Below, one piece after another: positions 43,981 to 45,792 of a stretch of DNA of 64,000 bases. Where the stretch lies: NCBI GenBank assembly GCA_030692515.1, contig JAUXZS010000015.1, positions 248,001 to 312,000 of the forward strand, written 5' to 3'. Made by a program: the position numbers and the translations under genes. Every line of letters starts with the position of its first letter. The first letter of the stretch is position 1. This DNA comes from Bacteroidota bacterium (GTDB lineage Bacteria > Bacteroidota > Bacteroidia > B-17B0 > Aurantibacillaceae). The notes under the pieces are model-generated. The model saw only the letters and a list, made by a program, of their open reading frames with translations. It was not told where the DNA came from and ran no database searches.

Positions 43981-44006
43981 AATAATCTTTCTGTTATTTT
44001 TCAACT

Positions 44007-44049
44007 GTCATTTCGAGTGCCGACCTTAGGAGGTTTATCGAGAAATGAC
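44007..44049. repeat. Palindromic repeat with GTCATTTC ends
   Basis: GTCATTTC (44007-44014) and GAAATGAC (44042-44049) are exact complements, each with an inner TCGA-like step. The same architecture, ends of TGTCAT type around a short variable core, recurs inside the coding region at 44487-44543. Confidence 0.65.
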
Positions 44050-44127
44050 TCCCGAAAATACCATCTCGATACGAAAATTAATAGACACATTTCCAAACTT
44101 ACTAACGCATAAGCAAACACAACTTGT

Positions 44128-44168
44128 CCTCCTCTTGGAGGAGGTGCCCGAAGGGCGGAGGAGGAGTA
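44128..44168. repeat. GC-rich double hairpin
   Basis: CCTCCTC-ttg-GAGGAGG (44128-44144) is followed by GCCC-gaa-GGGC (44146-44156) and another GGAGGAGG. The last segment can compete for the first arm, giving two alternative folds. Strikingly GC-rich for this genome. Confidence 0.65.
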
Positions 44169-44256
44169 CTCAAGTTTTTTATTTCCTCCCAATAGTTATA
44201 AGGATGTTGAAACGTAATTACTATTATAATTTACTGCATTTCAACCCTTCTGTTAT

Positions 44257-44448
44257 ACTTTTTTGCTTGAACAAAAAAGTAACAAAAAATTCAAGGCTTC
44301 TTAAAATTTTGCTAAAAATCTTTATTCTTCAATCTGATGATTTAAGCGCTACGCGAACAGCCAAATCATCTTCACACAAGCCAACGCTTTTGAAGTATAA
44401 AGATTTTCTCACGCAAAATTTTAAAAGGCCGATAAACTGTGTGGGCTA
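44257..44448. repeat. Long compound palindromic element
   Basis: It opens with ACTTTTTTG-cttgaa-CAAAAAAGT (44257-44280, exact). An outer imperfect inverted repeat follows: GGCTTCTTAAAATTTTGC..TCTTTAT (44295-44325) against 44397-44430. Within it GATGATTT (44336-44343) pairs exactly with AAATCATC (44363-44370). The element reaches the stop codon of the minus-strand gene (TAG at 44448-44446, inside GCTAACGCG). Its first hairpin resembles that at 3438-3456. Confidence 0.65.
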
Positions 44449-45792
44449 ACGCGATATAACAAAACGTTTACTAACGTTTAACGAATTGTCATTCCGACCT
44501 AAGGAGGAATCTGTATTTAGATCCCTCGTTCCTCGGGATGACAGTTTTAAAACATAAACACCATTTGCTAATTCTTTTGTATTTATTGTTGCTGCTAAGC
44601 TTTCTGCTTGCTGAGTAAAATGTAGCTCTTCTTCTTTTACAATTTGCCCTAATGAGTTCATAATTTGTATATTCACGTCTCGATACGCTTCGTTACTCGA
44701 CGTGACAAATTCTATGGTTAAAATCTCATTTGCTGGGTTTGGAAATAACTTTAATTTAGTCGCTTCGACTCCGCTCAGCGTGACGAAACCCAATCCGCTT
44801 GCATGTACAACAACTGTATCGTATTTAATTACCCCACAAATATCTTGTTTTACCATATAGGTATTTGTTGTTGTGGCAACGGTTAAAGTTAAACCTGCCG
44901 CATTAGCAATAACACTTGTGGTGTTTGGTAGTTTAAACCATTGGCAGGCTTCATCTATACCAACATCTTGCGGCCTACCAATATAAATTGTATTACCCGG
45001 TATTGCCCAAATATCATTACTTGCTGCTGCATAGGCTGGGAGGTCAATGGGGATGCACGACACATCGTCTAATAAAATATCACAAGCAACGGCAGGTAAA
45101 GAGGTAGAGTTGATTAACGTTTTTGTTGTAGCAGCGTCACTTTTAAAATTACCAATAACGCAATTTTTTTCTGTACCATTGGCTACAAATGTACCAGTAA
45201 TAGCTACCCAATTCATTGTGTCTGTTAAAATATTTGACGTTGAATTTTCAATCTGTGGTGTAATATAAGTTAAAGGGATATTAATTTTAGTTATTGTATC
45301 AATAGAATTGTCAACAAAAAAAATTCCAATATTAGAAATACCATAGCTTGATGGATTACTGACATTAACATACAGTTTTACACAGTAGGTTTTTCCAAAA
45401 ACCAAAGTTGATTTAAGACGATTTCTAAAATAACCTCTATTTGGATTTACCATACATTGGGGTGGCTGACATAAAAAAGTTGCCTGTAAAAAAGCATTAC
45501 CACTATGTGGCCATTGGTATGTTAAACCGTTATTTGGAACATTTGGAAAACAAGTATTACAATAGAGAATGCCATTAAAATATGTGGAATCTATAGAGCG
45601 CCAACCTTTTGCAACTACAATGGAATTTCCACAATTATAATAATTTTCTATTCCTCCATTAGTTATATAATTAGCTATTTGTTGGCTTCTAATATTAGTA
45701 ATAAACAAAAAAAGAAAAAACTGAATAAACAGCCTTTTCTTCTTAAGAAAGAAGAAAACATTATTTAGATATAATGAGTTTTTTATATTCAC
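44446..45792 (-). CDS. T9SS type A cargo protein with repeat-derived segments in its C-terminal domain
   Basis: 448 residues. Signal peptide near residues 15-37 (FFLFLFITNIRSQQ). Residues ~40-235 look like a jelly-roll module (GIENYYNCGNSIVV ... CDILLDDVSCIP), then an Ig/PKD-like module (~250-330). A type A sorting domain follows: LKLFPNPANEILTIEF, VNIQIMNSLGQIVKEE, LANGVYVLKLS and SKRFVISR. Three stretches of the last third are encoded by sequences that look like intergenic palindromic repeats: FVTLSGVEA (44762-44784), TSSNEAYRDV (44674-44706) and SSRGTRDLNTDSSLGRND (44487-44543). All keep the frame and fall in loops, so the protein is probably functional. Preceded by the slyD terminator. 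Confidence 0.85.
   Translation of the reverse strand: MNIKNSLYLNNVFFFLKKKRLFIQFFLFLFITNIRSQQIANYITNGGIENYYNCGNSIVVAKGWRSIDSTYFNGILYCNTCFPNVPNNGLTYQWPHSGNAFLQATFLCQPPQCMVNPNRGYFRNRLKSTLVFGKTYCVKLYVNVSNPSSYGISNIGIFFVDNSIDTITKINIPLTYITPQIENSTSNILTDTMNWVAITGTFVANGTEKNCVIGNFKSDAATTKTLINSTSLPAVACDILLDDVSCIPIDLPAYAAASNDIWAIPGNTIYIGRPQDVGIDEACQWFKLPNTTSVIANAAGLTLTVATTTNTYMVKQDICGVIKYDTVVVHASGLGFVTLSGVEATKLKLFPNPANEILTIEFVTSSNEAYRDVNIQIMNSLGQIVKEEELHFTQQAESLAATINTKELANGVYVLKLSSRGTRDLNTDSSLGRNDNSLNVSKRFVISR
44487..44543 (-). repeat. 57-bp intergenic-type repeat inside a T9SS sorting domain
   Basis: TGTCATTCCGA (44487-44497) and TCGGGATGACA (44533-44543) are inverted with one mismatch; GAGGAA/TTCCTC pair inside. 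The 57 bp are 19 codons, so the frame is kept. It expands the turn between the last two strands of the sorting domain. Confidence 0.75.
44674..44706 (-). repeat. CACGTC/GACGTG repeat inside coding sequence
   Basis: CACGTC (44674-44679) and GACGTG (44699-44704) flank a CGATACGCTTCGTTACTCGA-type core. It encodes TSSNEAYRDV in the sorting domain of the cargo protein. The core is typical of dispersed Bacteroidota intergenic repeats. Confidence 0.65.
44762..44784 (-). repeat. GCTTCGACTCCGCTCAGCG repeat inside coding sequence
   Basis: The + strand reads GCTTCGACTCCGCTCAGCG then TGAC, a widespread intergenic motif in Bacteroidota genomes. Here it encodes VTLSGVEA just before the sorting domain. Confidence 0.6.

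Follow-up and report, generated by a model that had tools for sequence, protein, structure and literature searches.

REPs and REPINs are dispersed bacterial palindromes that are moved by RAYT transposases. Repeats inside bacterial genes have already been published: passages of PMC3733652 describe GTAG- and CGTC-tagged REPs that lie mostly between genes, with some inside ORFs and in frame, and report that two Xanthomonas species have unlike REPs at roughly one position of recB. Passages of the same source describe Rickettsia palindromic elements (RPEs), in-frame insertions in genes whose proteins likely work, and its main text names Bacteroidetes once, for CGTC repeats (PMC3733652). Searches of the open-access literature, judged by the papers that they listed, gave no earlier description of such repeats within sorting domains of the T9SS. 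The repeats analysed here resemble the intragenic REPs, as those passages present them, in being short dispersed palindromes, mainly intergenic, of which some copies are read in frame within genes, with differing repeats at one site. In contrast to them, several families share the loops of one export domain in many cargo genes. The resemblance to the Rickettsia elements, as described in the same source, is that palindromes stand in frame in genes of likely working proteins (as in genome G010, below); here, however, the phylum is another one and some captures replace sequence, and the likeness is one of description.

The window, the whole 64,000-nucleotide stretch of DNA that was analysed, comes from a 4.33-Mb Bacteroidota genome (G000) and carries on its minus strand (44446-45792) an ORF of 448 amino acids encoding a T9SS cargo protein. 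The C-terminus of this protein matches both family profiles of the T9SS type A sorting domain, PF18962 (50.3 bits) and TIGR04183 (36.2 bits), above their cut-offs, the profile-defined domain spanning residues 349-421 (44530-44748, minus strand). The domain really extends to the stop codon, and the profiles end at residue 421 because the loop between the last two strands (L6-7) is a repeat, about 15 residues longer than in repeat-free relatives. Residues 325-448 were modelled with AlphaFold2 from an alignment of 16 domains, at a mean pLDDT of 74.4. The model has seven main strands, at fragment residues 22-28, 33-39, 48-54, 60-67, 74-80, 87-95 and 114-122 (add 324 for the residue of the whole protein), with a basic last strand and the end KRFVISR. 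With this fold and ending the domain is a normal member of its type, and it departs from the usual one in its repeat-made, lengthened L6-7 loop.

The preliminary description had claimed that three segments in the last 110 codons of this gene are repeats of intergenic type that keep the reading frame and encode loops, and our analysis bears this out. Segment A (44487-44543, minus strand) is a 57-nt imperfect palindrome coding SSRGTRDLNTDSSLGRNDN; in the model it occupies fragment residues 93-111, between strands 6 and 7, where pLDDT is low (about 58). Segment B (44674-44706, minus strand), with the arms CACGTC/GACGTG at 44674-44704, codes VTSSNEAYRDV at fragment residues 39-49, between strands 2 and 3. 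Segment C (44762-44784, minus strand; GCTTCGACTCCGCTCAGCGTGAC) codes VTLSGVE at fragment residues 13-20, in a disordered linker just before strand 1. The translation runs in frame through all three, and the repeat-coded stretches of the protein include SSRGTRDLNTDSS and VTLSGVEA.

Each segment belongs to a dispersed family, for which reversed control patterns gave counts at or near zero in the source genome. The 11-nt seed of repeat A, TGTCATTYCGA, has 30 matches there, versus 3 for the reversed pattern, and full-length copies of 57-61 nt are found between genes. All three coding copies are 57 nt long, as are 8 of the 25 proper copies (25 of 27 were kept for this count, the composite matches L045 at 2148 and L059 at 1993 being excluded); three of the six frames are open in the copy of the window. 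A copies often hold GACG/CGTC, seemingly within paired arms, compared with the unpaired GTAG/CGTC tag of the intragenic REPs. Repeat B (TCGAGTA-N5-28-TATCGAGA) has 7 matches versus 0 reversed: the window gene and its two paralogues account for three, each in its sorting domain, and the remaining four places lie within no ORF of at least 80 amino acids. Repeat C (CTTCGACTCCGCTCAG, up to 2 mismatches) has 18 matches versus 0 reversed, with copies between genes. Altogether, sorting domains hold 7 of the 55 places of A, B and C in the source genome (two each of A and C, three of B). None of the other 48 was judged intragenic except a lone A 11-mer in a 938-amino-acid ORF (L037), which is probably due to chance and was not counted as a capture; A or C matches in spurious short frames (L041, L054, L058, L067) or before the likely start (L063, L043) were not counted either.

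Three further repeats came up in the sorting domains. Repeat D is also dispersed, with 37 among the matches listed versus 0 for the control, under seven handles of which two have the same places. In the same-genus genome G036, the minus strand of the stored contigs carries 12 of the 13 D matches, which may be a chance of contig orientation. Four distinct copies of the CCCCATTGGGG type were seen in the examined loci of the source genome, at least three of them adjoining sorting-domain tails, and the GAGAGGGG type, with about two places in the examined loci, is the weakest-supported of the families. Y1_Tnp genes occur in 9 of 11 genomes, and none of the 29 Y1_Tnp loci has an A, B, C or D motif nearby. 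In this the repeats differ from the REPs and REPINs moved by RAYTs, with which they share their dispersal as palindromes, and from the intragenic REPs; a RAYT as their mover is thus unsupported.

We compared the sorting domain with those of the two full-length paralogues in the source genome (L002, L003), of 16 homologous loci from metagenome-assembled Bacteroidota genomes, and of two genes of G036. These genes differ in which repeat family, if any, stands at a given shared site, and we recognised four such sites. The linker holds C in the window gene, L085, L096, the first ORF of L099 and L168 (with one mismatch), a GAGAGGGG-type palindrome in L002, and D in L084, L088, L094 and L212; others, such as L003, L089, L093 and L098, have no recognised repeat there. 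The loop between strands 2 and 3 (L2-3) holds B in the window gene, L002 and L003, a B-like repeat in L097, C in L210, L212, L168, both ORFs of L099 and L182, and no repeat in the other genes. Between strands 4 and 5 there is C in L002 and a candidate C-like 15-nt form, reversed, in L099 and L210; this site is 4 residues longer in the window gene, with no recognised repeat. The L6-7 loop holds A in the window gene, L002, L004, L210 and L094, a CCCCATTGGGG-type palindrome in L003, reversed C in L212 and L168, a different sequence in L099, and no repeat in the rest. Neither homologues lacking intergenic copies of the segments, nor conserved residues encoded by unrelated DNA, were found, the two outcomes that had been named as arguing for ordinary coding sequence. 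We found no two strains that differ by a repeat in DNA that is nearly the same otherwise, and hence no capture in the form of a clean insertion.

The preliminary description had further suggested that the domain may be growing by capture of repeats. Capture is supported by the differing repeats at shared loops and by the several frames and both orientations in which C is read (below); growth, by the lengths at the four sites, is clear at two of them. The L6-7 loop is 11-16 residues long in all nine repeat-free homologues measured, 30-31 with A and 18-35 with other repeats; the distance from strand 3 to strand 6 is 24-29 without a strand 4-5 repeat and 33-36 with one. The linker has 19 residues in 10 of 10 repeat-free homologues and 19-22 with a repeat. 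The span between the PxP motif and the strand 3-4 motif is 23-24 residues in 10 of 10 repeat-free homologues; it is 25 in 8 of 8 domains with a repeat in L2-3 (37 in L097), and 22-26 where repeats are only elsewhere. The gain is thus about 15 residues for A and 5 to 8 at the strand 4-5 site, compared with about 2 for B, inside the range of the others, and 0 to 3 for C. Only A and the strand 4-5 site clearly enlarge the domain, and repeats in the linker and L2-3, B and C of the window among them, mostly replace earlier sequence.

The loop between strands 3 and 4 (NSLGQ), in which N is invariant and G and Q are nearly so, is repeat-free in 16 of 16 aligned domains. In P. gingivalis, according to passages of PMC11285876, secretion depends on the C-terminus and on the loop between strands 3 and 4, and replacing 11 residues of the loop between strands 5 and 6 does no harm. 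The repeats seem to occupy positions of the sorting domain where change is tolerated. In P. gingivalis, the cargo is exported and its sorting domain cleaved by PorU (PMC4804311); presumably, the cargo is translated and exported, and its domain cleaved, in the source organism too.

Repeat C is dispersed in the relatives as well. With up to 1 mismatch its motif has 157 matches in 11 genomes, versus 9 for the control, the rows of the source genome being listed in part. In the ten relatives (the source genome excluded) we fetched 80 regions with 87 exact copies, including 28 of the 29 listed exact matches of G010 (G010:C138 was left out). Eight of these are in sorting domains, in six genes (L139, L140, two in L168, three in two genes of L172, and L182, which is cut by a contig end and was recognised as a sorting domain by sequence), and 16 are in other long ORFs. 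The remaining 63 are intergenic or in short, edge or uncertain frames; they include L105, an ORF of 261 amino acids without a family. In L157 and L179, also among them, the motif stands at residue 3 of a frame and so probably ahead of the real start, and the frames of L125 and L127 are short or terminal. As 16 of the 24 in-frame copies of the relatives are outside sorting domains, tolerance of the repeat is not unique to these domains. Fifteen of these 16 copies are in ORFs that match a family, among them IleRS, FtsZ, SucB, BioF, ThiD, a menaquinone-synthesis protein, an ABC ATPase and a hydrolase; LeuRS hosts C three times, at two places in one G010 gene and at one of those also in G009. In alignments with solved homologues, the repeat faces a gap in IleRS and at the first of the two LeuRS sites, and no gap at the second. 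Twelve of the 16 copies are in G010; the copy in L121 may adjoin the true start of its gene. These twelve in-frame repeats in ordinary genes of G010 (L159-L183), those in LeuRS (two), IleRS, FtsZ, SucB, BioF and ThiD among them, amount to an RPE-like invasion of coding sequence. In another genome, G006, a long ORF with Pfam matches to FG-GAP and the TcdB middle region has a C repeat in frame (L158).

We analysed whether sorting domains hold more repeats than their share of the genome. There are 100 or more sorting domains per genome (at most 150 per genome were scored, of up to 274 candidates), which, with the linker, make up an estimated 0.8-1.8% of it. In the source genome, the 7 of 55 places are an excess with P 3e-7 to 6e-5, and 4 of 52, with P 0.0008 to 0.014, when paralogues are collapsed. 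In the relatives, 8 of 87 C copies are likewise an excess (P 6e-7 to 2e-4), with P 0.03 to 0.18 if they are taken as about three events. The enrichment is clear in raw counts and weak after collapsing copies shared by descent. The sorting domain is likely a hotspot of capture in the source genome; that it is one in general is unproven.

Dispersed families of palindromes are thus read in frame at loop positions of sorting domains, with differing repeats at the same loops. We think it probable that intergenic palindromes have been captured, in frame and recurrently, as loops of the sorting domain, and that exchange of domains spreads them. Several REP-like families (A, B, C, D and two more types) populate the intergenic DNA of these Bacteroidota, and copies landing in coding sequence would persist if they are in frame, free of stop codons and at places where altered or additional residues do the protein no harm. 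The sorting domain would be tolerant in this sense, its linker and most loops varying freely and the domain being removed after export in the model species. Repeats could then become loops, at L6-7 and the strand 4-5 site through net insertion, at the linker and L2-3 chiefly through replacement, and exchange of sorting domains between cargo genes would spread a captured repeat, A especially. The DNA mechanism of capture and the near-neutrality of the inserts are what we infer beyond this. A single capture behind all the sites was rejected, as families and frames differ at the same loops.

How much of the pattern is due to fresh capture depends on how the repeats were passed on. In sorting domains the readings of C are VTLSGVE, AELSRS and STPLS, with LRLAQ for its C-like form. 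Several frames and both orientations are thus in use, and C was therefore captured more than once. A has the same frame and orientation in all five sorting domains where it was seen, which suits one capture followed by spread. The cargo parts of L210 and L090 are 80% identical and their sorting domains 48%, and the domain core of L210 is closest to that of the window (72%); on these identities we read L210 as a probable case of exchange of sorting domains between cargo genes, with A carried along. Since A keeps one frame and orientation and domains seemingly are exchanged, it was probably the domain that carried A from gene to gene. At least four changes for A are required on a tree of the cargo parts, and only one on a tree of the domain core (58 columns, poorly resolved); partial, duplicate or other-family ORFs were left out, eight in the first and seven in the second. 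It is possible to go further and explain the whole distribution by a few old entries, passed on by duplication and swapping with little fresh capture. The behaviour of A, the L210 domain, the single change in the domain-core tree and the presence of B in all three paralogues fit such a history. It does not account for different families at the same site, for C in several frames and orientations at four sites, or for C in frame in unrelated genes, and we find it unlikely as the full explanation.

The gap at 43981-44445, behind the cargo gene, is, as had been proposed, a cluster of palindromes: by sequence and seed search, a short A-like palindrome lies at 44006-44049, between the convergent genes, followed by a GGAGGAGG-type inverted repeat at 44127-44166 (44106-44165 has copies in L002 (two), L005 and L021), and by a long dispersed hairpin with inverted arms at 44295-44430, 3' of the cargo gene. 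Copies of this hairpin are found in L003, L005, L072, L074 and L076, several of them just behind sorting-domain tails. The stop codon had been placed inside one of the palindromes. This was not confirmed: 44446-44448 lies in no palindrome detected, 15 nt away from the hairpin, and belongs instead to a dispersed, non-palindromic tail. This tail, coding the last strand with the stop codon (44446-44474, minus strand), has a 20-nt core that occurs exactly five times in the source genome, four of these outside any full sorting domain; the four exact cores and two near copies directly follow a palindrome. Orphan sorting-domain ends stand between genes, each straight after a palindrome, at L071, L072, L074, L076 and L079 in the source genome and at L212 and L214 in G036. 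One orphan tail in the source genome is behind rsgA (RsgA family match), and seemingly the same rsgA-end tail in G036 has a C-like repeat within an A repeat; a second tail lies just downstream in L002 and L004. The tail search gave 14 matches versus 6 for the control, and the orphan tails were taken from it without the 3-mismatch matches L081-L083 and without L080 and L078. The orphan tails may be relics, or material for swapping domain ends.

Such tails, intergenic and each directly after a palindrome, are what one would expect if the intergenic copies had their source in genes and were ends broken off cargo genes. The majority of the A and C copies between genes, however, have no sorting-domain sequence adjoining them, which mostly contradicts this derivation, and C and D are dispersed in many genomes; we regard it as very improbable. 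That ordinary coding sequence merely resembles the repeats by chance or codon bias, which the shortness of segments B and C and their small effect on length might suggest, is hardly credible, and chance likeness is ruled out, given matches 16 to 57 nt long, for which the reversed patterns gave counts of 0 to 3, and the excess of C over its control in the 11 genomes.

More tentatively, recurrent capture may have a wider role. It is possible, though we would not call it likely, that the sorting domain serves as a permanent landing pad in Bacteroidota: as the domain is discarded after export, its loops would be a nursery in which intergenic palindromes turn into coding sequence, and the shared repeats, with the orphan tails downstream of cargo genes, would be recombination handles by which domains and their ends are swapped from one cargo gene to another.

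The sorting domains offer a replicated natural case of protein sequence arising from non-coding repeats, in one small domain, at four sites, from several families, and in many genes and species. Since there are 100 or more such domains per genome, the process can be counted and dated. The repeats map where the sorting domain tolerates new sequence, in agreement with the two motifs that are essential in P. gingivalis, and they explain why the family profiles miss the end of such domains.
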